Shown here: piece by piece, positions 2,701 through 62,945 of the stretch
Layout: each line of letters begins with the position of its first letter
Position numbering within the stretch: position 1 is the first letter of the stretch
Assembly: GCA_026419785.1 (NCBI GenBank)
Contig: JAODTK010003654.1
Coordinates: 400,001 to 464,000, forward strand
Source of the DNA: Sclerodactyla briareus
Lineage: Eukaryota; Echinodermata; Holothuroidea; Dendrochirotida; Sclerodactylidae
Direction: 5' to 3'
Length of the DNA stretch: 64,000 nt
Made by a program: the position numbers and the translations under genes
Notes under the pieces: model-generated
Database searches by the model: none
Seen by the model: the letters and a program-made list of their open reading frames with translations, nothing else
Told to the model about the DNA's origin: nothing

Positions 2701-4019
2701 AACTTTCCTCTTACCAGAAGATTCTCTTTTGCTCCACAGGTGAAATTACTGGGAACGTTTGCCGGCGGATGGAATCTACCATGTTATAGGCGCGAGATTT
2801 TTGTTCCAGGTGTCCCCGGCCCTCTTTTTTTTTTGTATGTTTGTTGCTCTCCTTACTCTGCTGTTGTATGCCTTCGCTGTGTTCTAATCAAGCGCCTGAA
2901 CAAACACTCGACAGTTAAGATTAATCTCGGGACTTTACGGACCTGACAGCTTTGCCAGTTGCCACACATGCTACACAAAAACGCTGCAGGCCGCGTGCAA
3001 CGTCATCATTGTAACCCATGACGTAGCCGCAAGGTTCAATGCTAGGGCCAGATGGTCGAGTTGTGGTGTCGCACGTTACTTATCTGAGCGAAACGCAATG
3101 TTTAATCGTAGCGTCGCCAGCCGATTCATATTAGGATATCATTATCCAGCAATCTTCATTCCCATAATGTTTTCCCCAGCTGGTTTCAGTACTTTTTTGC
3201 GGAGAAATGCTAGGTTTGATGACGTACTTCCATTCAACGCACAGAGCTATTCGGGAAGAAGCTCAATCAAAGCTTAGACCACCAGCTCATTGCCCAAGCA
3301 ACCATACTAGGGAGTTATTTAAATTCACTATATCGCAACGCCATAGCCGCACACGCTAAGCAAGACCCGGTCCAGTCCAAACATCCGAAATACTTTTATA
3401 CTTTCAACATGATGTTTATGCCTTGTTATTTTGTTATATTTCGTTATTTCAGCTGATTTTATTGTTTTTATCTCCACGGAATCTGCTTGGACAAGGCCCA
3501 TTGTCCTCCACGGCGCACTTCAGTGATTGAATCATAACAACTTTGCAGAGAGAAATAATTCTTTAGAGCCCCAGTGTGTTCAGTGACATCAACATTTGAA
3601 ATGTCGGGCTGGTAATCCAGGCGGTTGCCGTTCGATAGACGCTGTGGTGCTTCAAATTTATTTCAACTTTATTTCGATTTGACGTTGTCGGTATTTTGTG
3701 ACATGGTTGCCGTTCACAGCACGTGCTAATTAGCCCTAATCCAGAGAAAATACACTGATCGCCCTGAACCTCTCGCATCCCGTCTGAATCATAGCACACC
3801 ACTGGAGATATATTGGTATTAGAGTATTGTACGAGATTAATCCATCACTGCCCACGCCCCCCCCCCCCCACCATCCATGAATGAGGCCAACTGTTTGTAA
3901 GAATTCATCTAAGAAATGAGTGACTTTCATGTTTCGCCTTGCTCAAACCCCTGTTCTTGAACACGAATATCTGTCAGTGATAGCCTAGAATGTGGTGAAG
4001 TTGAGATAGCCTTGGTGCA

Positions 4020-4240
4020 GTTTCAGTGGTCCCGTCCTAGGTCCACCACCGGTACCGTTATGTCCCCGTAGTAAATTTCGAATATCCTGAAGCCTCGGGG
4101 GATCGTGGTCCGAGTCCCCGTCGTAGTGTGTCGGTGCATAGCTAGAGCACCTTGTCTCTCTCAACCCAGGTGCTAATTTGCGTGAGTACCTATGAGGTGT
4201 GGCTTGTCATTCGCGCTGATCACTAACTGATGCACAAGCT
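4020..4240 (+). repeat. Second SINE-like family
   Basis: B-box-like 'tggtccgagtccccg' (about 4,107) is followed by 'agagcaccttgtctctctc' and 'acccaggtgctaatttgcg'. This resembles the cap-to-tail layout of tRNA-derived SINEs common in marine animals. One copy only in this window. Confidence 0.5.
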
Positions 4241-4259
4241 CTCTGCACTGTCAACAATT

Positions 4260-4440
4260 CCTGTAGATTTACAGTAAATAACGGCCAACTTCCGCGCCAG
4301 TGATTTACTGTGAATTTTACCGTAAACTACGTAAATTATAGATGTAATATTATTTTACTGTAAAGTCCGTAGTTTTATTGTCCAATTTACAGTAAATAAC
4401 GGGCAGCAAGTTTGCCGTAATTAAAGTTGCCATAATTTTA
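4260..4440. repeat. Palindromic TTTACAGTAAAT cluster
   Basis: 'tttacagtaaataacgg' twice, plus the inverted forms 'ttactgtgaattttaccgta' and 'ttttactgtaaag'. It can form several hairpins. No coding sense. Confidence 0.7.
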
Positions 4441-5764: not shown

Positions 5765-6290
5765 TTGTCTCGCCTGCGAAGTCTCTGAAGAGACTCAGCG
5801 ATCACTTTGTCGTGTAGGTTTGTGTGTATGCTATGTTGTGTGCTCACTTGCTTGTTAGCAGATTTTGTCCGAACGGCGAGAATACCTGATTTTGATGAAT
5901 TTTAAAGTATTATCGGGGTGGGTGAATACGATCTACAGATTTTTGGGCAAAAGAGTCATGCTTGTGGGGGTATTAGCCTATTTTATGTACTTCCTTGTTA
6001 AGCTCGTTAGCAAGATTACTTACTGACGCACCTAAGGTGCTATTGTGGTTTGGTTTGGCACATAGAGGTACAGGGTATAAGGTAGATGAACTCAGCATAA
6101 AATATGTTTAGACGTCTTATTAGCATAATTCATGCAAAATTTGTATTGTTTCGTTGGATTTTCATGAAACTCGTGTGTATGGTTTAAATCCCTTAGTCCC
6201 CAACATGCAATCTGAAAGTTTTTCTGTCCTTCCGGTTCCATTTTCAATTCCATTGTCTCATATTTTTCATAACACCCGATCCTAATTTAA
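5765..6290 (+). other. Probable unclassified dispersed repeat
   Basis: It starts 'tctcgcctgcgaagtctctg' with an inverted 'agtctctgaagagact' hairpin (5,780-5,795) and contains 'acgcacctaaggtgc'. Non-coding. I see only one copy here, so classification needs a library search. Confidence 0.3.
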
Positions 6291-9200
6291 CCACACAAAT
6301 ACCTCCTTTTGCAACCCTACCAGAATCTCTCCTTTCGTCTTTTCTCTATGCTTTTAACAATCATTTTTTCAACAATCAACCTCTGTGCACCCCCCTGTCA
6401 GGCATTCCTTCCATTAATCCAATCCCCACCTCTGGGTACGCCACTGTTGGGACACATGGCACACACTCTTCAGGGTCATAATTTCCTGGACTTTCGTTCT
6501 AATGGACTGGTTGACACAAAGTGTAAATGCAGAGCTGATCCAAACGTCCGTCATTAAGGCAACTTTGAACATTTTTCCGTTCACAAACCAGGGTAGTAAC
6601 AAAAGGTTGTCACTGATCGTGTCATAGCAAGGCACACTAAACCTTTACAGCATTGCCGATCGTCATTTCTAAATCTGCCGATCGCGGGCAGTGTGGTTGC
6701 AGGGGGGGGGGGGGGAGGGGTTTTTTGTCGGATGCCGCACATTATTTTCCACTTCCTCAAAGACAAATTCATCATTCAATACCATAACAAAAGGCGATTG
6801 GAAAACTTCGACCTAAATAATTAAATGAATTAGACTGAAGGGACCAGAAGCAGGGACACTTTAGTCTGGTCTCTGTGAAAAAAAAAAAAAATATTATCGT
6901 GTCGAGAGAGAAACGAAGTGAGTAAGTGCCAAGTAATGGTCCGTCGTTCGCGGCTGTTCCTATCGCACTTTACGTTCACTTTGTCCTTGCATGCCTACTC
7001 GGGCTACAATCGGATCTTGGCCGCTCAGAGTCCGACTTCGTCACTATACTAAGAGACCACTTTTAGGGATTTGGCTTTCTCAGGGGGAGAGGGTCCCTGT
7101 TTACATGGCAACTTCCGGAGAAAAAGCAACCCCCCCCCCCCCTTCACTGTCGCGGGCACTGTCGTTGATGTTGATTTTAGGTAGTCATGGATGAAAAACG
7201 GAGTTTCGACCACTTCTTTTGTGCAACCTACATGCCTAATTTGAATTTGACACATTGCTAGCTTGCGTTGGTTCAGATCATCGTGGCTAGCCTGCCTAAA
7301 AGCAGACGCTTAAGAGGCCGTTCCTAAAATAGAGGGGGCTAAACTCTTTAGTATATACACGGTCGAATGTTTAGGCAAATCACCGATTGGTTAAAGGGTA
7401 AACCTGCACCTATGAGTGAATGAGGCCGATTACGAGGTGAAAGTGGACCACCAGCGGGCCGCCATCTCACTGCTAACTGGGAACAAGAAGCTTCACCTAT
7501 ACACACACATGCGCACGCGGGCTCCGGCAAGGAATAAAACAAGAACAAAACTGTGCGTAGTGATTTTTTGCTATTTCTTCGGGTAATACCCAGCTTTTGT
7601 AACAAGAGGAGATTTCCAAGATCACCTAACATCTGAAGATTCATTCTAAGCAGACAAGTGGCAGAATAATTCGGTAACTCACCACAAACCAACATGGCCG
7701 GATTGTGCTGTCAAGTTGAGTGTCAAGTCCCGGTCCCTCCTTTGGTCATCACCCATTAACCATGTAAAAAATACATTATGCCTATAATCTCTACTTTCCC
7801 GGCGAAAAAAAAAAAGGTAGGTTTCGTATCTGCTATTCTGGTAATAAGCAGGCCCCTGCGAAGGGGGGGGGTGCTAGGGGTGCTGCATTACCCCCGATTT
7901 ATCTGACGGGATGCGGAGCACCCCTACCGATTTCAGTTCATATGTGTCCCAGCACCCCTGGTCGATTTGTCTTTAAGGGCTGTCATGGATCATTATTTGC
8001 ACGAAATTTGGTATCCGGTTTTTGATCTGCTGGCTTGCGTAGTTGTTTTTCAGTGTACTTGGCAACTAATGGAAATATTCCTATATACCCCAAATTCACT
8101 TGATTATTTTGATGATCGATCTGATAGTATTGGAAAAAAGATCTCTTGAAGTATCCTTATAATTGTTTTTATAAATCCCTCAAAGGCACTACCACCTATA
8201 ATACTCAAAAGTTGAATTTTTCAAGAATTTTCATCTGTATATAACAATGTACGTATTTGTATGTTGGCTCCGCAGGCACTTCTAGGCGTCACATTCAACA
8301 TTGGGGAGGGGTTTGCCCATGTCCATGCTTCCCCTGCCGGTAGTGGAAGGTTGTCAGTGGTCATTTCTTGACGAATCTCAGCAATTTTGTTTCTATCGCC
8401 GTTATTGTGCTTTGTTATCTTGTGTAATGGACGTGCACATGGTTAAGTCTTAGCAATGGCTTTTCCGTTGTCCTGATTGACTTCTGCTTTGCGGGCACAT
8501 CACCATAAATCACATACCTACCCCCAAATAGGCCTACTACGTTCACAACCGCGTCTTACCGGCTGTAGACATACACTGGACTCTATATACTCCAATATTT
8601 TTGGTGGGGGGGGGGGACATAATTCAAAATATCCCCCTCAAATAATTTTGCGGACTGCCTGAAAAAATCTCGGGTGATCATAGGTCAGTACGGCCAAAAC
8701 AAAAATTGTCACCTCATAGTTAGATGCAAATTCCAATTTTTCTGTTGAGAACGGCCGCGCTGTATCCTAGCTTTTCCGTTACATGTATATACAGTGGGCC
8801 CCCGTGTACAATACTTTGCAGATTCGGGCAGTAGATTTTGTCCCATATACGTGTCATCTTCAAGTGTGGTGAAATTGGTAGGCCACGAGGAATTTGGTTG
8901 GGCACTTGATTTCATGTTGCACCCCCCCCCCCCCCCTCCCCACTACAACAATCCGGAATCCATGCATTTTCTTAGCACTGCACACAGTTTAGTTTACTTC
9001 TGGTCCTAGTGTTTCAGATTGGCTTTGTCAGCCTTTCGTGCTTTTCCTAAAAAGATGAAAGCTTAAAGTAACGAAACAACAGGGCGTGGATCGTGCACCT
9101 TAGTATGGGGGGAGGTTCACGTGATTAACGTATGGAACTATACAGGCGCGGAACGAGGCCAAACAATTCTGAGACAATAGAAATTGGACGAAAAATTTGA

Positions 9201-36420: not shown

Positions 36421-38710
36421 GTGACGCTGGCTTGTGGACACAATAATTGACCCCACCTGGATGGAGAAGCTCATACTTGGTTTATGGTAGTGTTCCCCAT
36501 TGATGAGACATGAAACCCTATTGTTTTGGGTACCAGGTCGGAGGTAAGCTGAGGTCACCAGAGGTCAAGTCTGAAAACCTTGTGAAAACACGATAAGTCC
36601 CAGACTGGTTGGTCTGATCGGGTTCAAATTGGTGGGTAGCTTTTTCAGGAAGTACAGGACCCCTATTGTTTTTGGTTATAGGCCAGGAGTGAATTTTGGT
36701 CAAAAATAGAAAATTGTAAAAGCAATAATTTGGCAATTTTGCTGTTGACACGATAAAATCGACCCACCTGGATGGATGAAGCTCATTACTGGTATTGTGG
36801 TCCCCATGATGAGTACATTGAACCCTATTGTTTTGGGGTCGGGTAGAGGCATCGAGTTCAACAGAGGTCAAAGTCTCTGAAAACCTTGTGAAACATAGTC
36901 CAGATGGCGGTCTGATCGAGGTTCAAATTTGGTGTGTAGCTTTCTTATGGGGAGTACAGGAACCCTCTGTTTTGGGATAGGTCGGGTTGAATTGGTTCAA
37001 AAATTTAGAAATTTGTGAAAAGTCAATAATTTGGCCAACTTTGGCTTGGGAACAAGATAACTCAACCCCACCTGAATGGATGGAAGCTCATACTGGTATG
37101 TGTGATCCCCATTGAGTACATGGTCCCTACTGTTTTTGGTCAGGTCAGAGGTCATCTGAGCGTCACAGAGGGTTCAAAGGTCTGAAAACCTTGGTGAACA
37201 CGATAGTCCAGAATGGTTGGTCTGATCAGGTTCAAATTTGGTGTGTAGCTTTCTATGGGAGTACAGGAACCCTATGTTTTTGGTAAAGGTCGGGGTGAAT
37301 TTTGGTCAAAAATAGAAAATTGTGACAAGTCATAATTGGCATTTGGCGTGTGAACCCGATAACTCGACCCCACCTGGAGGAGAAGCTCATAATTGGTAGG
37401 GTGTTCCCCATGATGAGTACATGAACCCTATTGTTTTGAGGTCATGGCAGAGGCAATCTGGGTCACCAGAGGTCAAAGTCTGAAAACCTCGTGAACAGAA
37501 AGTCAGAATGGTGGCTGATTCAGGTTCAAATTGGTATGTAGCTTCCTTTGGGTGATAAGGAACCCTATTGTTTTTGGAAGAGGTCAGGAGTGAATTTTGG
37601 TCAAAAATAGAAAATTTGTGAAAAGTCAATAATTTGGCCAATTTGGTTGTGACACAAGAACTCGACCCCACCGGATGGATGAAGCTCATACTTGTATGTG
37701 TGTTCCCATGTGAGTACTGAACCCGATGTTGTTGAGGTCAGGTCAGAGGCCATTGAGGGCACCAGAGGCAAAAGTCTGAAAAACCTCGTGGACACGATAA
37801 GTTCAGAATGGTTGGTGATAAGGTCAATTTGGTGTGTAGCTTTCTTATGGGTGATACAGGAACCCTATGTTTTGGTAGAGGTCGCGGAGTGAATTTTGGT
37901 CAAAATAAAGAAAAATGTGGAAAAAGTCAATAATTTGGCAATTTTGCCTTGTGAACCGAAACTCAACCCCACTGGATGAATGAAGCTCATACTTGTAGGT
38001 GTGTTCCCCATGATGAGTACATGACCCTATTGTTTTGGGGTTAGGTCAGAGGTCATATGAGGCCACAGAGGTCAAAGTTGCCAAACCTTGTGAACACGAT
38101 AGTCCAGAATGGTTGTCTGAGCTGGTTCAAATTTGGTGTAGCTTTCGATGAGTGGTACAGAACCCTATTGTTTTTGGGATAGGTGCAGCTCGATGTCGGA
38201 GGGAATTTTGTTCAAAAATAGAAAATTAGTGAAAAGTCAATAATTTGGCCAATTGGGGATTGTGAACCGATAACTCAACCCCACATGGATGAATGAAGCT
38301 CAGACTTGGTATGTGTGTTCCCCAATGATGAGTAGATGGACCGTATTGTTTGGGGTCAGTCAGAGGTCATCTGAGGTCACCAGAGGTTCAAAGTCTGAAA
38401 AACATGTGAAAACGACTAGTTCAGATGGTTAGTCTGAATCGGGTCAAATTTGGTGTGTAGCTTTCTTAGGAATACAGAGAACCCTTGTTATTGGTATAGG
38501 TCAGGGGTGATTTTCGATATTATGCCCAATTTGGGCTTGTGAACACATTAACTTGACCCAACCCGGATAGATGAAGCTTCTACCTGGTATGTGTGTCAAA
38601 TGATGAGTACATATTCCCCATTGTTTTGAGGTCACCGAGGTCAAAGTCTGAAAATCCTGAAATTAGTGTGTAGCTGTTCTTATAAGAGTATAGGAACCCT
38701 ATTGGTGGTT
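36420..38710 (+). repeat. ~305-bp satellite array, first locus (about 8 units)
   Basis: The phrase 'gaccccacctggatgg' and variants recurs near 36,450, 36,765, 37,066, 37,366, 37,664, 37,966, 38,277 and 38,554. Each unit also holds 'gtgtgttccccatgatgag', 'gaaccctattgttttgggg', 'gaggtcaccagaggtcaaag', 'ggtgtgtagctttcttatgg' and 'gaattttggtcaaaaatag'. Units are non-coding. The minus-strand openings here are chance. Confidence 0.92.
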
Positions 38711-39089: not shown

Positions 39090-39974
39090 GGGGAGTTTAG
39101 GGGACCCAGGGCCCCATATCTGGGGAATAACTTATTGCGCCACTAAGCACACTGGAGTAGGAAATTCGGGGAATCCAGTCTGCATCTGAGAAAAAGGCTA
39201 TGGACACACTGACATGGCCATGGGTAGGGAAGATCAGGAAATTTGATGACCTACATCGGAGTAAGTAAGCTATCTGCACTATACTTAGACATGAGTAGGG
39301 AAAAATCGGGTACCCCCTGTCCTGCCACCTGAGTAGGGAATAAATAGGATGCCAGTATTCGGCATTGAGTGAGTAGCGATCTGCCACAATACTTAGCCAT
39401 TATTAGGGAAAATCAGGATATCCCCGGTCCTGCCCCCCCGCCACCTGCGTAGGGGAAATAACTAGGAGCCGATCATCTGTAACTGATAGACTAGCTGTCT
39501 GCACTATTACATATCCATGGAGTATGGGAAATCAGGGTACCCATTGTCCTTCCCCTATGAGTAGGGACTAACCGGGACGCCAGTAATCTGGCATCCGAGA
39601 GAATAGCTATCTGTACCATTTAGTTACCATGGAGTAGGAAATCAGTTCCCCATGTCCCTTTCACACTCTATGATTAAGGCAAAACCAGACGCCAGTATTC
39701 CTGTATCTGAGTAGTCGCTATCTGCACCATTACTTAGCCATGAAGTACGGAAATCCGGGTATCCCTGTCCTGCAGAACCTATTAAAGTAGGAATAACTGG
39801 GACGCCAGTATCTGCATCTGAGAGAACCCTATCCGCAACCATTATTTACCATGGGAGTAGGGAATCAGGGTATCCCTGTCCTGCACTATGAGTCGGAATA
39901 ACCAGGATGCAAGTATTCTGCATCTGATAGTAGCTATCTGCAAAACATTACTTAGCCATGAAGTTAGGGAAACT
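39090..39974 (+). repeat. ~109-bp tandem array, left block
   Basis: Roughly eight degenerate copies of a unit with the elements 'ccatggagtaggg', 'aaatcagggtatcccc', 'tgtcctgcacc', 'gagtagggaataacc', 'ccagtattctgcatctgag' and 'agctatctgcaccatta'. The array continues beyond the DIRS insertion at 45,744-46,000 and reappears at 47,035-47,270. Confidence 0.85.
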
Positions 39975-40131
39975 TTACTTCAGGGCACTTCCTTCTGGAC
40001 TTACTACCAACTGCCTTTTCGGCAAACGCTGCTTCAAACACACCCTATACCACTAAAAAAGAGTTAAGCACAGCCCCGGTACCGAACGTAGCCGTAACTA
40101 TCCTGGAGCGGTACAGGGCTGCACCATCATT
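39975..40131 (+). repeat. DIRS left inverted terminal repeat
   Basis: The reverse complement of this stretch matches 45,571-45,735. Shared blocks include 'gttacggctacgttcggtac', 'aactcttttttagtgg' and 'gtccagaaggaagtgcc'. Single-base gaps separate the blocks. Confidence 0.88.
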
Positions 40132-41340
40132 CTTTTCGGTGTGTGGTACACGGGTACACCGGGGGGGGGGGAGACTGCTACTGTGACCTCGTCTCAGTCA
40201 TCTCTTTCCGAAGCTTCTCAGGCCACTTCCTTCCACAATTCCAACCACTATCAGGTGGTATAATTCCTTTTTGGGGATTTGGGTGTATTGTCTGTAACTA
40301 TTTACACCATTCCTGCACCCTTCTTGGGTTCGTCTTGCGTTATCGGCCATGCGGTCGTGGTGTGTGCCCGGGTCTATTGTATTGGCTCGTTTGGGCCACC
40401 GTATCGCGGCCGTGGGGCTGTGGGTTTTTCCCCCTCCCTCCCCTCGGGCTAGGTGTGTTATTTCCTTCCCGCTATCTTTTTACGGTTCGTTTGAGCCCTT
40501 TCTGGCCTCTGTCTGGTCCCCCGGGGGCTCTCTGGGAGGGGTATTTTTCCCTCACTAAGTTCGAGCGGGTTTCTCCCTCCGTCGCCTATCTCTCGTTTTG
40601 CACTAGGACTTTTACAACACTGTAGCTACGGGGTTTCCGTGTCTGTAAATGCTTTGTGTGTGTTTCTTCCCGCATTCGTGTGGCTAGGCCCACAGGCGCT
40701 CAGAGCGCTTGGGCCACTTTAGGCCGTTGCCTCATGTTTTTTGGCCCCCCCCCCAAACATAATTTTTCCACAATAGTGCAGCGTCATGTTCCTTTCCAAG
40801 CATTCGCTACGGATGCTTGGGGTGCCATATTTGTTGTGGTTCTCTAGTCCTATTTATATTCAGATGTCGCACGCTCATGCGAGCTATAGCATGAGTATGG
40901 CAAAAATTTTCTTTTCATGTCATGACTGTAGCTTTTGGTCGCTCTTCAGATAGGCCCCTCTTTCGAGCGGTGCGCCCCGCCAGTGGTTTGGTCGCCATCT
41001 TTTATTTTCGCCCGTCGGAGGCGTTTGTTCCCCCCTGGAAGCCGTGAGGGCTGTTGACCCAGGGGTTTTTGGGGTTCTTTTCGTGTTCCCCGTTGGGGCC
41101 CTCTGAGCGACGCTTTTCTTTTCCCTCCCCACTCCCCTCGGTCAGGGGGTGGGTCCTTAACCGTTGTCGTGCAATTTTCAACGTTTCCCCTATATCTCGT
41201 AAACGGTAAACCCTAGGGGGTCCAAAGTTTCAACTTTGATTTTCAGAGTCGGGCCGCAGGGGGTCATTGTTGGACCCCCCGGCAGCTCCTCTTGCGGGTC
41301 CTTTGACCTATTTTCGAGTACATTGTCTATGTAGAGTACT
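40132..41340 (+). other. DIRS 5' leader, pyrimidine-rich, no recognised product
   Basis: About 1.2 kb between the left terminal repeat and the first gag-like reading. It is GC- and T/C-rich with stops in all frames except short stretches, and contains poly-G (40,160-40,171) and poly-C (40,745-40,753) runs. The open frames here have proline/phenylalanine-rich composition without family similarity. I treat it as untranslated leader or badly damaged ORF1 start. Confidence 0.4.
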
Positions 41341-41349
41341 TAGTTGAGT

Positions 41350-43740
41350 ACATGCCTGACGTACTACTTGTTTTCGTTTGCTTTTTTGACAGATCTGTAA
41401 GACGAAGCGCATTACGTTACATTGTCCTCGAGACAGCGCACTCCCGCATCGAGTACCACCAGAGGCCCTCCCGTTTCTACTGCGGCGTCGGCGCTTGCGT
41501 TCCGCTCAAAATCCACGCTGGGTGGGTCCCCCCTCCGGGTCCCCCCGTTCTACTCGCGTGGGACATTCGTCCTGTCTGTCTTCCTTCTCCCTCCACTGGC
41601 TGGCTACCGTTGTTGGGTCCGCCTTAATGGGGGGATGAGGCCCTGCGGGGGCGAGATTCTGGTGGTGACGGTCACTTCGTTGAAGGGCCAGGCTTAACAC
41701 CTCGTCACCACGATTCTTCCAGTACCATTTCGATCCCTCGTGGCACCTCGGTTTCTAAGACCCCCCTCCCTTCTCCCTCCCCTCAGGCGACGCGATGCAT
41801 TCTCCTGGGTTGGAGGAATGATGTCCCCGCGTGGACCGCTGTTTAGAGACGACTACGTCGGCGTTGACGTCACCCTTTCCGTCGTCCTTTCCCTAACCGG
41901 ATTATGGCCGGGGCCCTCCCGCGTGTCGGGTTTTCCGGCTCAACAGCCCTAGCCCCCACCAGCAGTTGGCTCTACCTGGGGTGACCCCCCTGCGCCGTGG
42001 GCGCAGGGGCAAGGAACGTTCCTCCAGTGGGGGGAACGGTTTCCTGGGAGCCCCACAGCCATATGTTTTTATGGCTTTCTCCGAACCCTTTCGGTCTTCA
42101 GGCCCTGGTACGTGTTCGGGGACGGCGTCCACATGGGCTTCGTACGTCCGTCGCTGTTAGTGCGCTCACCCCCGTTTTTGGGATCTGTCGTGGGTGGTCC
42201 CGCAGGGGCGCCGTCATGGGGCGCACGCTGGGGTTTTTGGGGGCGCTGCCCTCTGGGCTGCAATCCCAAACAAACCGTCGCGACTGGTTCTCCCGCTGGT
42301 TCTCTTCGGGGATGCCCCCCCCTCTTCCTGGCGATGCTGGGAACCCGGCCCAGAGACCTCGGGACTGGTCGGAGTTTGTTGTCCCTCCGTCCCGCCACAG
42401 ACTGCAAGGCCCGTCCGTGGGACGGGAACCGGGGTCCCCCCTTGAGTCGTCCTCGGATGAGGAAAGGAGAAACCCCCCTCCTCGTAAGACCCGTAAGCCC
42501 AAGAAGAAGCCAACGCTTCGGGCGGGCAATTAGCTTCGACGCTGGACGCTCTTCAGTCACTGACGGCAGTGTTGGCTCAAGGGCTGTCACGCCGGGAGTT
42601 GACGGGCCTCTCCGCCCGAGGGCCGGGGTTCCGCTTTGCCCCCCTCCCGATCCCCGTCCCAACTGCAAGGCCCCCCCGTTTTTTCCGGCGACTGGAAAAT
42701 GGGGTCCCCCCTGCAGTCTCCTCGGATGAGGAGAGGAGATAACCCCCTCCTCGTAAGTCCCTTAAGCCTAAGAAGAAGCGCGATTCTTCGGGCGGGCCAA
42801 TAGCCTTCGACGCTGGAAGCTCTTCAGTCACTGACGGCAGTGTTGGCTTAAGGGCTGTCACGCCCGGCGTTAACGGGCCTCTCCGCCGGGGACCGGGGGT
42901 CGCTTGCCCACCTCCGATCCCGTCCCAGCACTGCAAGGCCCGTCCGTTTGACGCCGGACCATGGGGTCCCCCCTGCAGTCGTCTCGGATAGGAAGAGAGG
43001 AGTAACCACCCCCTCCTCGTAGTCCTAAGCCCAAGAAGAGCGCGATGCTTCGGCGGCCACACAATTATCTTCCGACGCTCTGGAAGCTCTTCATCACGAC
43101 GGCGGTGTTTGCTCAAGGGCTGTCACGCCGGGAGTTGACGGGCCTCTCCCCGCCGGACCGGGGGTCGCTTGCCCACTCCTCCGATCCCGTCCCAGACCGC
43201 AAGGAAGGCCCGTCCCCCGTGCGATGGAAACACGGGGTCCCCCCTGCAGCAGTCGTCCTGGATGAGAAGAGTAGCAACCCCACTCCTCGTAAGTCCCGTA
43301 AGCCTAAAGAAGAGCGCGATGCCTCATTCGGGCAATTAGGTTCTTCGACGCGAAGCTCTCTTCAAGTCACTGACGGCGGTTTGGCTCAAGGGCTGTCATG
43401 CCAGAGTTAACGGCCTCTCCGCCCAGGGACCGGGGGGTCGCTGCCCACCTCCCCCCTCTTCGCAACACCGGACACTTCCCGGAGCCCAAAGGGAATGGTG
43501 TCCGTTTGTTCCCTCCCCGTACGTCTCCCGCTGTTGTCGGCGACGGAGCCTCGAGGGAGACAAGGTCGATCGTCCCCCGCCGGTCCTCGAGTCGGAGATC
43601 GCGTGCACCATCGACCGTTGGTCCGGGTCGACGCATCCGTCTTCGCCGTCTGAAATCTCCTACCCCCTCTGTTGAGGGTGCCCTGACGGGCCAGGATCTC
43701 GTCCGTCGACGGAAGAGCCACCCGTTGCGGGCCTCGTGAG
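41350..43740 (+). pseudogene. DIRS ORF1, gag-like, frame-broken
   Basis: A GC-rich region with overlapping frame-shifted openings. Translations are rich in Pro, Ser, Arg and Gly. The clearest part is a repeated block containing SSSDEERRNPPPRKTRKPKK (an acidic-serine stretch followed by a basic, nuclear-signal-like stretch) and AQGLSRRELTGLS, which looks helical. The end (43,400-43,740) is Arg/Ser-rich. No zinc knuckle is visible. DIRS gag proteins are poorly conserved, so assignment rests on position upstream of RT-RNase H. Confidence 0.5.
42400..43440 (+). repeat. In-frame tandem module of about 264 bp (88 codons), four copies
   Basis: Copies start near 42,400, 42,662, 42,930 and 43,194, recognised by 'ctgcaaggccc' and 'gtcccccctgcagtc'. 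The spacing of 262-268 bp is near 88 codons. The frame at 43,045-43,410 stays open across a full period and contains AQGLS twice, which supports coding repeats. Each unit holds an acidic Ser/Glu stretch, a PRKSRKPK basic stretch, and an AQGLSRRELTGLS segment. Confidence 0.75.
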
Positions 43741-43879
43741 GAAGACTACGCTGCAGCGGTGACGGAAACGGGTGGGGGGGGGGGGGTCGGGCTTTCCCTG
43801 AACTTGTCAAAGACCCAGGAGGCCGCGGAGGAGGATCCGACAGGCTGGGCGCGTATGCCCCACTCCCACTTCTGCCATG

Positions 43880-45110
43880 GGAAACACTAGCGGTGTTTCA
43901 AGATCCTGCGGAGGGGTCTCTGGGCGAGTCGTGGGCTAGAGGAGGCGTACTTGCTTCTACCCGTCAGACGGGATTCCTCTTCATATGCTTCCGCTGTTCA
44001 CGCTTTTTTTGCCCCCTACCATTTACCAGTCTCCATTTGGGTTGCGACGCGCCCGGTGTGTGTACAACGGGTTACGAGGGCCATAGTGGCCCATCATGCG
44101 TCGTCAGTGGTCCGATGTTCAGTATTTGGACACTGGCTTATCGTGGGGACTCAGCGGCGGAGGATCAGAGGAGCACCCGCACGGTCCTGAACGTGGCGAG
44201 GAGGACGGGGATGGCTCGTCAGCTTTGCCAAGTCATACCTGAGGACCGTTCCGCAGATCGTGTTTCTGGGTACCAGATTATTGACGGAGGGGTGGCCCCC
44301 TACACCGGGAGACTGGAAGGGCCCTACAAGCCGGGTGTCGGCGCTTCAGGGCGAAACTCTCCCTGCGCGGGGGTGGGTTGTTCCTCGGCTTCATGGTGAA
44401 CCTAGTAGACCTGGTCCCCTTTTGCTGGCTGTACATTCGCCCCCATCCAGATCCTCCTCTTTGCGTGTTTGCGCACGTCGTCTCGGGATCTGTCGTCGCC
44501 AGTGCCGTGGCAGTCCCACCTGGATGCCAAAAACCCACGGTGGCTGTAATGGGGACAACGTTTACAGGGGGTACGGTTCCCGCCTTCCCGTCCATCTTTT
44601 TGCCTCACGTCGGACGACTCGCCGGATTCGCGTGCTCAGTGTGGGAATCGAGACGGGGCCCACACAAATGTGCGCGAGTTGTTGGCGTTGTCCGCGCCTG
44701 AAATTACTGCAACGAGGAGGGCGGGCAGTCTCGTACTGGTCGGTTGCGGACAGTACCGCGGGCGGTGTCGTTTACATAACCCGACAGGGCGGGACGCGTT
44801 CGAGGAGTCTGTGGTCAGTGACCTGGAATCTGTTCAGTGGTGCCGCAAGCACGGGGTGCGCTTAGACGGTTCACCGTCCGGGTTCAGAGAAATCCATCGC
44901 GGACATGCCTCGCGTGCATCATTCAGGCTCCGACGGAGTGGTCTCATCATGTTTCAGAGTTGGGCAAGGTTATGAGAGGCGGTTTCATCGTCCGGAAGTG
45001 ACTTATTCGCATCGCCTATCACGCAAAGCTGCACACGAGTCTAGCGACGATTAGGCTCTGGTTTGGCATTTTGTGTAGCGAGCGTACGCCTGCCCGCCGT
45101 TCGGCCTAGT
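43880..45110 (+). pseudogene. DIRS reverse transcriptase-RNase H, degenerate
   Basis: Reverse transcriptase copies the element RNA and RNase H removes it. Visible across shifting frames: an RT motif-A-like SDGIPLHM (about 43,965), PFGLRRA (about 44,032), then QYLDTG (about 44,131) where the family has YxDD. RNase H follows with LTSDDS (about 44,604), HTNVRELLAL (44,662-44,693) and YITRQGGTRSRSL (44,770-44,811). A C-terminal part follows with GFREN (44,881) and a PTEWS/NAKLHT region better preserved in the duplicate copy (46,168 on). Only about 70 codons separate gag from motif A, so the RT fingers look deleted. Confidence 0.7.
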
Positions 45111-45469
45111 CAAAGGGGTGGCAGGGAAGCCAGTGTTGGTCCCATGATAGCGCCGGTGTGGCCGAGCCGAGCGTGGTGCGGGGCCGGGGGGTGGAGGAGG
45201 GCGTCACTGGCCCCTCGGTAAGCGTCGGCTTGGTGCCTCTCCCCCTTCCCCACACGCGGCCTCACTGAGAGCGTGTGTGTTGGGATGTGGCGGCTCGGGG
45301 ACATCTGACTGGACGGGATGGTGCTCCGCTCAGATGTCCTGTAGTTCTGGTTTGACTGTGGAGGCGGTACCCAGGCGTTTTCTTACGGGGAGTGGTCTTA
45401 TTCTAGTTGGAATTAATTCGATCACCGGCTTCCACCTCCTTGCGGTGGGAGGCTGCAATTGGTAGTATA

Positions 45470-45531
45470 GTCCAGAAGGTACGTGCCCTGAAGTAAGGGG
45501 GGCTATTAGAGGGGCAACTTACCTTCTGGAC
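45470..45531 (+). repeat. DIRS internal complementary region
   Basis: The first half (45,470-45,496) is the reverse complement of the element's first 26 bases. The second half (45,497-45,531) is the reverse complement of its last ~36 bases. In DIRS elements this region is thought to template completion of the termini or align them into a circle. The whole stretch is also a near palindrome, starting 'gtccagaaggta' and ending 'taccttctggac'. Confidence 0.85.
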
Positions 45532-45570
45532 ACGCCCGTCTCCACTAAGCAAGGGACCTCGGGTGCTCGC

Positions 45571-45743
45571 TGGATGATAGTACTGCCCGGTACCGCTCCC
45601 AGCTAGTTACGGCTGCGTTCGGTACCTGGGCTGTGTTAACTCTTTTTTAGTGGGTATAATGGTGTGTTGGAGCGGCCGGTTTTCCGAAAATGCAATTTTG
45701 TAGAAGTCCAGAAGGTAGTTGCCCCTCTTACGTAGCCCCCCTT
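45571..45743 (+). repeat. DIRS right inverted terminal repeat
   Basis: Complement of the left repeat (39,975-40,131), with an extra ~30 bases at the outer end ('ttgcccctcttacgtagcc') that are matched only in the internal complementary region. Unequal outer ends of this kind are normal for DIRS elements. Confidence 0.85.
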
Positions 45744-46000
45744 AAGGAAGGGGGGTTAAATCAGGGTATCCCCTGTCCGGCAGCCTGAGTTATGGTATAA
45801 CCTTAGAAGCCAGTATTCTGCATCTGAGAGAATACTATCTGCACCACTATTCAGCCATGGAGTTGGAAAATCAGGGTATCCCCCATACTGCACCTGAGTA
45901 GGGAATAAACCAGGGACACCAGTATTCGCATCTGAGAGAATAGATATCTCCACCACTATTCAGCCATGGCGGGAGAAGATTGGGGAATTCAGCGTCGTAC
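45744..46000 (+). repeat. ~109-bp tandem array, middle block
   Basis: Two units and a part, resuming with 'aaatcagggtatcccctg' directly after the DIRS right end. This shows the element inserted inside the array. Confidence 0.85.
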
Positions 46001-46167
46001 ATTGGGCAAGAAAGGCTATGGGCCACCCCTCTTCAGCCACCTGGACTGAAAGCCCTACAAAATTTTTTTTTTAGGGGTCCAAAGAGGGGAATCATGGCGT
46101 GTAACTGGGATGAACATGGCTTTGACTTTACTCAAGATGTGTTGCACTCATTGCCTGCTTATTCAAG

Positions 46168-47430
46168 GTTCAGAGAACTCCATCGCGACGTGCTCTCGTG
46201 CATCACTCAGGCTCCGACGGAGTGGTCATTCATGTACAGAGTTGGCAAGCGTATTTGAGGCGTTCATCGTCCGGAAGTGGACGTATTCGGCACGCCTCCT
46301 CAACGCAAAGCTGCACACGAGTCTCGTCGCGATCTGGCTTCTGGTTTGGCTTTCCGATGCGTACGCCTTCCCGCCGTTCGGCCTAGTCGAAGGGGTGGCA
46401 GGGAGCCAGTTGGGTCCCCTGATAGCGCGTTTTGGCCCGACCGAGCGTGGTTCCGGGGCCTGGGGGGTGGGCCGTGGGTCATTGGCCTCTCGGTAAGCGT
46501 CGGCCTTTTGCCTCTTTTTTTTCCCCCCTTCCCCACCCGCGCCTCACTCGTAGGTGTGGTGTTAGGCTTGTGGCTGCTCGGGGAAATCCTGCCTGTGACG
46601 GGAATGTGCCCCGCCTCGATGTCTGTAGTCTGGTTTGATTGGAGGCGTACCTCTGGACATCCCTTCTTACGTGAGTGGTCTTATTCTAGTTGGATGAATT
46701 CGCTCCCCGGCTTCCCACCTGCCTTGCGGTGGGAGGCTGCAAGTTGTAGTAAGTCAGAAGGTAAGTGCCTGAAGTAAGGGGGGCTACTTACGAGGGCAAA
46801 TGACCTCTTATGGACACCAGCGCCCGTCCTCCCCCACTAAGCCAGGGACCTTGGGTGCTAGTTGAATGATAGACAGCCGGTACGGCTCCGTAGTTACGGC
46901 TGCGTTCGGTACCTGGGCGTGCTAACTCTTTTTTAGTGGTATAGGGTGTGTTGAGCGGCCGTTGGCCGACCATGCAGTTGTGTAAGTCCAGAAGGTAAGT
47001 GGCCCCTCGTAAGTAGCCCCCAAGAGGGGGGAAATCAGGGTATCCCCTGTGCCGACCACCTGAGTATGGTATAAAACGGAAGCCAGTATTCTGCATATGA
47101 GCGAATACCTATCTGCACCACTATTCAGCCAGGAGTATGGAAAAATCCGGGTATCCCCCATACTGCACCTGAGTAGGGAATATCAACCAGGACACCATAT
47201 TCTGCATCTGAGAGAATAGATATTCCACCAATTCAGCCAGGGCGTGGAGAAGATTGGGAAGTAGCGAGCATCTGGCAAGAAATGCTATGGTCACCCCTCT
47301 TCAGCCACATGGCTGACAGACCTACAAAATTTTTTTTAGGGGTCACAGAGGGGAATAGGCGGGGGTAACTGGGATGAACATGGCTTTGACTTACTCAGAT
47401 GTGATTGCAATCCGCTGCTTATTCAAGACA
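46168..47430 (+). repeat. Tandem duplicate of DIRS 3' third plus flank
   Basis: This stretch repeats 44,882-46,167: RNase H C-terminus, internal complementary region (about 46,755-46,815), right terminal repeat (about 46,860-47,030), ~109-bp array, and a flank ending 'gcctgcttattcaag' / 'ccgctgcttattcaag'. The duplicate begins directly after that motif. Its RNase H end is better preserved (GSENSIA; NAKLHTSLVAIWL). The copies differ mostly by single-base indels. Confidence 0.85.
47035..47270 (+). repeat. ~109-bp tandem array, right block
   Basis: Two units after the duplicated DIRS right end, beginning 'aaatcagggtatcccctg'. It is the counterpart of 45,744-46,000 in the 1.27-kb duplication. 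Confidence 0.85.
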
Positions 47431-48814: not shown

Positions 48815-50110
48815 AGTTGCTCCAGTGGAGACATGAGATGCTTGACACTTGTTTTGTTGATGAGGTGCATAGTGTGTTCGAGTCTCTGCATGGCTTCAAC
48901 ATTGACCAAGTCGTGACTGTCAATGAGTGGTACCATTGAGTCCTCCTGATATAGGGCTGGGACATGAATGTTTGAGTCTATCTATGGCTTCAACCTTGAT
49001 CAAAGAATGACTGTGATGGTGAGTGGTATTATTGGGGCGTGTCCTGATAGGCTGATACAGAGAGTGGATGATACCTGAAGCTGAATCTATCTGTGGCCTT
49101 AACTTGATCAAAGTGGAGACATGAGACTGCTTGAGACTGTTTTGTTGATGAGGTGCATACGTTGTTCGAGTCTCTGCATGGCTTCAACATTGACCAAGTC
49201 GTGACTGTCAATGAGTGGTACCATTGAGTCCTCCTGTAAGAGGGCTGGGACATGAATGTTTGAGTCTATCTATGGCAGGCTTTCTCAACTGGCGGCGCGC
49301 ACGCCACTTTCGGCGCGTCGAGGCATTTCACAATGGCTCGCGCCTGGACTGGCATGAATAAGAACCAAAATAAGATAAAATACAGAAAACGCATCAGACA
49401 GTGAAATATTATTTTCAAATGCTCCATTAAAACTATCAATGAAAATTCTGGAATATGGTAAATATTAGTAAGGTAACTTACACCTACGGCGTGGGAAATC
49501 CATTTCCTGCAATTGGGGGGGTCTGTAAGACAGAAATTTTGCAAACGGGAACAGCACCAACCAATGTGGCGCTTGATTTCAAAGGAATGACTATGCTGGT
49601 GGTGTGTGGTATGATCAGGGCATGTCCTGATTGGCTGATACAGAGAGTGGATAAATGAATGCCTGAATCTATCTGTGGCTCAAACTTGATCACAGTATGA
49701 CTATGTTGGTGAGTGGTATTATTGGGGCGTGTCCTGATAGGCTGATACAGAGAGTGGATAAATGAATGCCTGAATCTATCTGTTGCTTCAATTTGATCAC
49801 AGTATGACTATGTTGGTGAGTGGTGTAATTGGGGCATGGCCTGATTTAAAGTAAACACACAAGGAATGCCCAAATTTAACTATGGCTTTCGCATGATAAA
49901 GTTATGGCTATGTTGGTGAGTGGTATTATTGAGGCATGCCTTATATGGAGTGGATACGTGAATATCTGAATCTATCTGTGCGCACCTTGACCAGGGTATG
50001 ATTGTTGGTGAGTGGTATTATAGGGGCATGTATCGATACAGAGAGGACACAAAATGTCTTAATCTTTCTGTGGTGTCAACAAGTACAATATGTTGGGGAC
50101 TGGATAAAGT
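48815..50110 (+). repeat. ~109-bp intronic tandem array, unrelated to the 39-kb array
   Basis: Recurring blocks 'gactatgttggtgagtgg', 'tattattggggcgtgtcctg', 'gctgatacagagagtgg' and 'cctgaatctatctgtggctt'. There are about nine degenerate units directly after the exon 12 donor. A longer segment (48,829-48,975) is repeated at 49,113-49,275. The array is interrupted at 49,276-49,590 by transposon-like DNA. Confidence 0.85.
49276..49345 (+). mobile_element. hAT-like transposon end
   Basis: 'caggctttctcaactggcgg' followed by GCGC-rich DNA resembles the CAGnGnTTCTCAAnnTGG terminal repeats of hAT (Charlie-type) transposons. It interrupts the tandem array abruptly. The other end is not clear; a poly-G/'gtctgtaag' repeat follows at about 49,510. 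Confidence 0.4.
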
Positions 50111-61099: not shown

Positions 61100-62945
61100 T
61101 TGATTCTTGCGAAGTCAGAAGAATCGATGCAGTCATGTTCGTGCGTATTTGTGTGTGTAATGTGTGGATGTTATGCGGATGTGAACACGATAACTGTTCG
61201 ACCGCTCACCTGGATGGTGACGCTCCAACTTGTTATTTGTGTTCCCCATGATTAGACCCATGAACCCTATGTTTTGGGGTCATGTCAGAGTCATCGGGTC
61301 ACCAGAGGTCCAAGTCTGAAACCTTGTGAACAACGATGATCCAAAACGGTTTGATTCTGATCAGGTTTCCAATTTGGTGTGTAGCTTTCTTAATGGGGAG
61401 TACAGGAACCCTATTGTTTCTGGTATTATAGGTCGGGTGAATTTGTGAAAAATAGAAAATTTGTGAAAAGTCCATGATTTTTTGCGCCAATTTTGGCTTG
61501 TGACCACGATAAACCTCGACCCCAACATGGATGGATGAATGCATTCCTGGTAATGTTGTTCCGCCATGATTAGTAACATGAAACCCTATTGTTTTGGTGT
61601 CAAGTCAGAGGTCATCTGAGGTCACCAGAGGTCAAGTCTGAAAACCTTGTGAACACATAAGTCCAGAATGGTGTTGTCTATCGGGTTAAATTGGGTGTGT
61701 AGCTTTCCTTATGGGAGTACAGGAACCCTATTGTTTTTGGTTATAGTCAAGGGTTTGATTTTGGTCGAAAATAGAAAATCTTGTGAAAAGTCACTATTTT
61801 GGCCAAGTATTGCTTGGTAACACGATAACCTCAACCCCACCTGGATGGATAAAGTTCATACTTGGTATGTGTGTTCCCACATGATTGCATACATGAACCC
61901 TATTGTTTTTGGGGTCAGGTCAGAGAACGTCTGAGGTCACCAGAGGTCCCAAAGTCCTGAAAAACCCTTCATGAACCGATAAGTCCAGAACGGTTTGACT
62001 TGATCAGGTTTCAAATTTGTGTGTAGTCTTTGTATGGGTAGTACAGGAACCCTTGTTTCTGGTAATGGGCGGGGTGAATTTTTGTGAAAAATAAAAATGT
62101 TGTGATTTGGCCAATTTTTGGCCTTGTGAACACGATAACTCGACCCACATGGATGGATGGAGTGCATACCGGGTATGTGTGTTCCCCATGATATTACATG
62201 AACCCCCCTCTTGTTTTGGGGTCAAGTCAGAGGTCATCTACCCACGAGGTCACCAAGGTCCAAAGGTTGAAAACCTTGACATGACACGATAATGCCAGAA
62301 GGTTGGTCTGATCGGGTTGACATTGGGGTGTGTGATCTTTCTTTGGGAGAGTACAGGACCCTATTGTTTTGGTATACTCAGGTTAAATTTGGGTCGAAAT
62401 AAAAATTTGTGAAGAAGTCACTTATTTTGGCCAATTATGATTTGGCTTGTGAAAAAACCCGATAGCTCTACACCACCTGGATGGTTGAATTTCATACTTG
62501 GTATTTGTGTTCCCACATGATTGCATACATGAACCCTATTGTTTTTGGGGTCAGGTCAGAGGTAATCTGAGGTCACCAGGGGTCACAGTCTGAAAACCTT
62601 GTGAGCACGATAAGTCCAGAATGGTTGGTCTGATCGGGTTTTAATTTGGTGTGTAGCTTCTTATGGGAGATCAGGAACCCTATTGTTTTTTGGTATAGCT
62701 CAGGTTCGGTGATTTTGGTTCGAAATTAGAAAATTTGGGAAAGTCAATATTTTGGCCAATTCTGGCTTGTGAACTGAACACGCGACCCCACCTGGAATGA
62801 ATGAGCTCATACTTGGTTAGTGTGTTTCCTGATTGATGAGTTCCTGAACTACTGTGTTAGGTCACCATAGTCAAAGTCTGACATCCTCGAAATTAGTGTG
62901 TAGCTAATTATCAAGAGTATAGGAACCTATTGGTTGGTTGGAACA
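61100..62945 (+). repeat. ~305-bp satellite array, second locus (about 6 units)
   Basis: The same unit as 36.4-38.7 kb, with 'cacctggatgg' landmarks near 61,208, 61,519, 61,834, 62,141, 62,470 and 62,784. It starts with the same head ('gaatcgatgcagtcatg' plus GT-rich DNA at 61,105-61,180). It ends with the same truncated unit, 'gtgtagct...agagtataggaacc', as the first array. Confidence 0.92.

Follow-up and report, generated by a model that had tools for sequence, protein, structure and literature searches.

Introduction

DIRS-1 of Dictyostelium discoideum, a DIRS1-like retrotransposon, has been reported to occur as circular DNA and to prefer its own copies as targets (PMC5633606, accessible part). 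According to the accessible part of a 2011 overview (PMC3266345), DIRS1-like elements are known from 61 species; the hosts in its tables include Cnidaria, Mollusca, Annelida, Crustacea, Hexapoda, Echinodermata and Hemichordata. An element of this type in an invertebrate is therefore no surprise, and the tables speak against the view, expressed in the initial annotation of the DNA studied here, that such elements are rare and little studied in invertebrates. We analyzed 64,000 nucleotides from the holothurian Sclerodactyla briareus ("the window": positions 400001-464000 of contig G000:C2299 in a 319-Mb assembly of 3171 contigs), which very probably carry a defective member of a multi-copy family of DIRS1-like tyrosine-recombinase retrotransposons. 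The type is already known; the less-described trait of the copies in this genome is a palindromic extension of the right end.

Terminal structure points to a DIRS1-like family

A genome search for further copies, as proposed in the initial annotation, found a multi-copy family that includes longer copies of ~7.3-7.6 kb in this noisy assembly. Labels beginning with L denote these other sequences of the same DIRS1-like family in the same genome. The 3’ end of the window element gave 258 first-look candidates, of which the best 40 were scored (89 match rows), and the 5’ end gave 259, again with the best 40 scored. A reverse-transcriptase piece of L038 returned 144 rows, overlapping frames counted, including a match at window positions 44001-44627 (G000:C2299:444001-444627). 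The 3’ set comprised 42 sequences: 40 other copies (20 longer and 20 short stretches), the window copy and a downstream duplicate of its 3’ part. The 5’ set comprised 35: 20 short stretches, 14 taken out of longer stretches, and the window copy. Near-full-length alignment in a single block was obtained for seven of the 20 longer stretches (L021, L024, L025, L032, L033, L038 and L028 itself); the other 13 were broken up or incomplete, partly because of the end of the extracted stretch.

The longer copies have inverted terminal repeats (ITRs) of ~150 bp, a 26-nt palindromic right extension and an internal complementary region (ICR). ITRs of ~150 nt were found in the window copy and in four other aligned copies, and the ICR is the reverse complement of the joined outer ends (...GGGGGGTTA + ACTTACTTC...). 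In 38 of the 41 measurable sequences, the ICR has a palindrome-sized spacing of 16-25 nt, after which the left end begins, both read in reverse complement; all of these but L021, a poor case, carry the palindrome itself. The stretch of L056, the 42nd sequence, was too short to measure. The presence of ITRs and of an ICR complementary to both outer ends supports the assignment as a DIRS element, specifically of the DIRS1-like type. The same features bear on whether the element might instead be of the PAT or Ngaro type, with split direct repeats. The broken proteins described below do not by themselves speak against that reading, but the terminal repeats are inverted, not split direct, in all five copies aligned, and the complement of the joined ends lies within the ICR in 38 of 41 sequences; we therefore reject it as hardly credible.

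The right extension is palindromic and moves the borders

In the other copies, conservation of the right end continues past position 45743, where the element had initially been thought to end, through ...CCCCCCTTAACGAAGGGGGGTTA and the palindrome to GGGGGGTTA, beyond which the flanks vary. Their left end begins ACTTACTTC and reads ACTTACTTCAGG. These copies place the ends of the window element at 39972, three bases outside 39975, and at ~45758, so the "textbook termini" and well-defined borders of 39975-45743 do not stand: on the right, the family ends at a different point, 15 nt further out. The window right end carries one extra T relative to other copies, ACTTTACTTC.

The base-by-base agreement between ends and ICR that had suggested the narrower borders was partly genuine. 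The ITRs and the ICR are real, but the close fit near 45743 occurs in just three of the 41 sequences (L024, the window copy and the duplicate), those in which the ICR spacing is 2 nt. The ICR of the window copy has lost ~19 nt, probably through slippage between the two TAAG repeats on either side of the hairpin base, and this deletion explains the apparent agreement. DIRS borders can be read from the ICR of a single copy, and one small ICR deletion can thus yield convincing but wrong borders.

Loss of the ICR palindrome probably happened twice, in the lineage of the window copy and in L024, since the window copy and L024 have few minority variants in common (10.4 per thousand, under the mean of 13.5; sd 7.5, 189 pairs) and the nearest relatives of the window copy (L031, L039, L037 and L023) retain the palindrome. 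A subfamily uniting the window copy and L024 by their palindrome-free ICRs was rejected on that same value. The ICR palindrome scores 30-32 of 52 in L054, L027 and L035. One observation weighs against a palindrome as a constant part of the ICR: L021 has normal spacing with a poor palindrome (26 of 52).

The family palindrome at the outer right end is 26 nt long, TAGCCCCCCTT-AACG-AAGGGGGGTTA in other copies, with the loop AAGG in the window copy. RNA folding gave an 11-bp stem, including one G-U pair, and a 4-nt loop, abutting the expected circle junction (z-score -2.49 for L028, -1.74 for the window copy). The right end scored at least 31 of 52, a cut-off set after the scores had been seen, in 40 of 42 sequences, L051 and the window duplicate scoring lower. 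The extension, complementary to the ICR only, lies outside the ITR and measures 23-26 nt in four other copies (25-29 nt with an alternative end placement); the window copy has kept it at the outer end and lost it from the ICR. With up to three mismatches allowed, the pattern GTAGCCCCCCTTAACGAAGGGGGG matched the genome 95 times (49 forward, 46 reverse) vs 0 for the reversed control, which excludes chance occurrence. The matches represent 76 loci on 68 contigs, with the pattern present twice, 209-278 nt apart, at 19 of the 76.

A literature search found no text describing the DIRS right extension as a hairpin or palindrome, which is weak evidence of novelty as subscription papers lay mostly outside the search. 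The text of PMC3266345 does not use palindrome, hairpin or stem-loop wording, and in the accessible part of PMC5633606 the palindrome wording concerns rDNA. That the hairpin might serve as a recombinase binding site or a stop signal for cDNA synthesis, and that its loss from the ICR may recurrently kill copies, are suggestions we consider quite unlikely to be right. If they were true, and if the 26-28-nt extensions tabulated for other animals were palindromic too, the hairpin would be a general and undescribed DIRS integration signal. Its presence at 76 loci makes a part in junction formation testable.

Insertion without target duplication

The window copy interrupts a ~109-bp tandem array. 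The left flank ends in GGGAA and the right flank begins AATCAGGG; the rejoined flanks restore an array unit, which bears out the comparison of the empty unit with the insertion point called for initially, and with it the claim of insertion within the array without target duplication. Neighbouring units show two or three G and then two to five A ahead of TC, so the site has no duplication beyond noise. A search with 214 bases of the right flank gave four candidates and five match rows, all on the same contig (very common words were skipped). The array therefore looks local, and a genome-wide satellite as the target was rejected because the matches are confined to the window contig.

L025 provided a second site: across the junction, its joined flanks match a host repeat that is dispersed in the genome (673 candidates, best 40 scored). 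Of six empty sites, L081 was identical at the junction, L084, L085 and L086 had one extra base, and L082 and L083 differed more. Of six joins, that of L025 alone was used for this test; those of L024, L028 and L036 lacked a few flank bases. Flanking duplications, which would have spoken against the initial reading, appeared at neither the array nor the L025 site, give or take one base of noise; the flank sequences thus support duplication-free insertion at two sites. L025 and L032 have a near-identical left flank in this dispersed host repeat and the same insertion point, directly after TTTGCATA, with different right flanks.

The last base of the left flank is A or T in 21 of 22 cases, giving [A/T] followed by ACT at the left junction; 27 of 35 were kept, less five out of register (L027, L066, L075, L076 and L079), and L023 is doubtful. 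Right junctions read TTA followed by an ATT-like flank (A in 19, T in 18 and T in 22 of 27), using 27 of 41 sequences; the 14 dropped lacked an exact reading of the G run, TTA and 12 flank bases. The overall flank preference is [A/T] on the left and A-T-T on the right. The published model, in the accessible part of PMC3266345, expects an identical 3-bp sequence at junction and target. Here the shared triplet is not clean: the junction bases are A/T-biased but differ between left and right in most paired copies. Sequence noise prevents placement of the exact recombination core.

Under the published DIRS model, the RNA would lack the outermost ends, which reverse transcriptase would restore from the ICR. 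The restored cDNA would form a closed circle with the expected junction GGGGGGTTAACTTACTTC, and the tyrosine recombinase would recombine this junction into an A/T-rich target without duplication. The terminal repeats, an ICR that copies the joined ends, two apparently duplication-free sites and the flank preference are consistent with this route, from which we infer the circle, transcript and enzyme steps. The window copy itself can hardly be mobile by its own proteins: it has lost the recombinase stretch, part of the reverse transcriptase stretch and the ICR palindrome.

Coding remnants and sequence noise

Short protein motifs were sought in 21 copies. On the coding strand, a PTEWS-type motif occurred in 10, LGWLV in 7, AD[MVL]LS in 6, KSDL-type and DAYxFPP-type motifs in 5 each, and a recombinase-like NT[IL]RGYRS-type motif in 3; none occurred on the other strand. 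Their order is reverse transcriptase, RNase H, methyltransferase-like (MT) stretch and recombinase. These motifs are of kinds known from DIRS elements, and we take the DAYxFPP-type motif to mark the MT stretch after RNase H.

Several protein results weigh against the identification. Pfam recognized no family at E<=1 in 16 pieces (8 from the window, 8 from other copies) and, at E<=10, gave one irrelevant weak match in 9 pieces of other copies; a PDB sequence search with two pieces was empty or insignificant. Y[LI]DD and HSTR are named as DIRS motifs, the former as highly conserved, in the accessible part of PMC3266345. Y[LI]DD was found in 3 of 21 copies, once outside the element, with one match on the other strand, and SD[NS][ATR] gave 6 matches on the coding strand vs 7 on the other, neither being better than chance. 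HSTR was found in 0 of 21 copies on the coding strand vs 5 chance matches on the other. A genome search for PF00589 gave one match over the cut-off, not at an examined DIRS copy, and three weak ones. The lack of significant domain matches is explained by copies broken by indel-dominated noise. The PF00589 match over the cut-off lies outside the window, within a 171-aa open frame at G000:C1216:519173-519349, possibly another recombinase element.

Gap columns (12.6-18.4%) outnumbered mismatches (6.7-10.4%) in every one of the 20 alignments to L028. We take this excess to reflect sequencing noise more than true decay. The pattern is unusual for natural divergence, and raises the possibility that the deletions, and with them the ~271-bp units and the duplicated 3’ part described below, are assembly artefacts of unpolished or chimeric long reads. 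The halves of the duplicate differ about as much as the noise, and stops interrupt 6 of 14 HSP70 match rows; the other 8 are open. The array, moreover, resumes across the element where it was interrupted, so the insertion is no random join, and large deletions are present in other copies too. We consider an artefactual origin rather unlikely.

Internal deletions and a downstream duplicate

The window copy is damaged internally, and both its deletions and the duplication of its 3’ part were overlooked in the initial annotation. The ~1.22-kb deletion falls before and into the reverse transcriptase, and we infer the amount of reverse transcriptase removed. The ~1.18-kb deletion covers the stretch that holds tyrosine-recombinase-like pieces in other copies. 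The ~271-bp unit is present four times in the window copy, vs once in 12 of 12 compared copies, all units aligning to one place. The duplicate, which begins inside the element, is 82.7% identical to its source, with 138 gaps and 94 mismatches in 1343 columns. It has the same recombinase deletion and the same loss from the ICR, so the duplication is later than both or an assembly effect. A similar arrangement, a pair of equally oriented DIRS 3’ ends ~1.6 kb apart, is found in L030 (G000:C110:45100-53900).

The copy may have been shortened before it inserted, as a non-autonomous derivative, within a subfamily prone to deletions, that full-length relatives moved in trans. Its outer ends are complete, and the minority substitutions that it has in common with L031, L039, L037 and L023 (48.7, 44.4, 38.2 and 28.4 per thousand) compare with the baseline mean of 13.5; these four internally deleted copies also lack a stretch, ending near L028 positions 5970-6012. 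The exact deletions differ, however, as that of the window spans 5784-6965, and L024, otherwise full-length, lost its ICR palindrome without grouping with the window copy. The differing deletions and this ungrouped loss imply that deletions arise repeatedly and may postdate insertion. We regard shortening before insertion as possible, with the balance tilted against it.

Features of the window

Table 1. Positions in the window of the element, its parts and its surroundings
Feature	Position	Strand	Basis or remark
Probable DIRS1-like element, redrawn borders	39972..45758	+	Ends and ICR circle-junction sequence of other copies, window letters
Left ITR	39983..40130	+	Local alignment with reverse complement of right end
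Right ITR	45574..45724	+	Local alignment with left end
ICR, without palindrome	45455..45531	+	Alignment; complementary to both outer ends
TAAG at ~19-nt ICR deletion point	45494..45497	+	Other copies typically TAAG-TTAACCCCCCTTCGT-TAAG
Right extension, 26-nt palindrome TAGCCCCCCTT-AAGG-AAGGGGGGTTA	45733..45758	+	Crossed by earlier border 45743
Left part of local ~109-bp tandem array	39277..39971	+	Units aligned between 39277 and 39887
Right part of tandem array	45759..45969	+	Resumes where left part stops, GGGAA then AATCAGGG
Internal deletion point, ~1.22 kb missing (L028 positions 3108-4328)	43857..43859	+	Alignment to L028
Internal deletion point, ~1.18 kb missing (L028 positions 5784-6965)	45178..45199	+	Alignment to L028
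Four tandem ~271-bp units inside element	42384..43452	+	Tandem-repeat and copy comparison
Broken remnant: later reverse transcriptase and RNase H/MT-like stretch	43859..45178	+	Alignment to longer copies
Tandem duplicate of 44881-46167	46167..47427	+	Element 3’ end, array flank, further flank

Elsewhere in the window, tandem arrays at 36428-38514 (~301 bp) and 61180-62688 (~315 bp), ~23 kb apart, have a similar consensus with TACATGAACCCTATTGTTTTGGGGTCA in common. A 107-bp tandem repeat of 2.3 copies lies at 49600-49846, with a related stretch near 49010-49070. For 10 open frames in the rest of the window, Pfam gave no match. A search for COX1, aimed at placing the host, likewise had no match.

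Comparison with known systems

By its tabulated description, SkoDIRS2 of Saccoglossus kowalevskii (6283 bp, ITRs of 15+142 nt, a right extension of 27 nt and no left extension; PMC3266345, accessible part) has repeat dimensions similar to those of the window family. Its ends are tabulated as GTT/GTT with the junction AAC, unlike those of the window family; SkoDIRS1, not SkoDIRS2, is the 175-copy family of that species (PMC3266345, likewise).

DIRS-1 of D. discoideum shares with the window family the ITRs, the ICR, the right extension and the model of duplication-free insertion (accessible parts of PMC5633606 and PMC3266345). Its tabulated ends, TTA/TTA, resemble those first chosen for the window copy, whereas its tabulated length of 3793 bp and conserved ITR of 304 nt differ (PMC3266345, same tables). 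Ngaro and PAT elements belong to the same retrotransposon order and combine a reverse transcriptase with a tyrosine recombinase, but they have split direct repeats where the window family has inverted repeats and an ICR.

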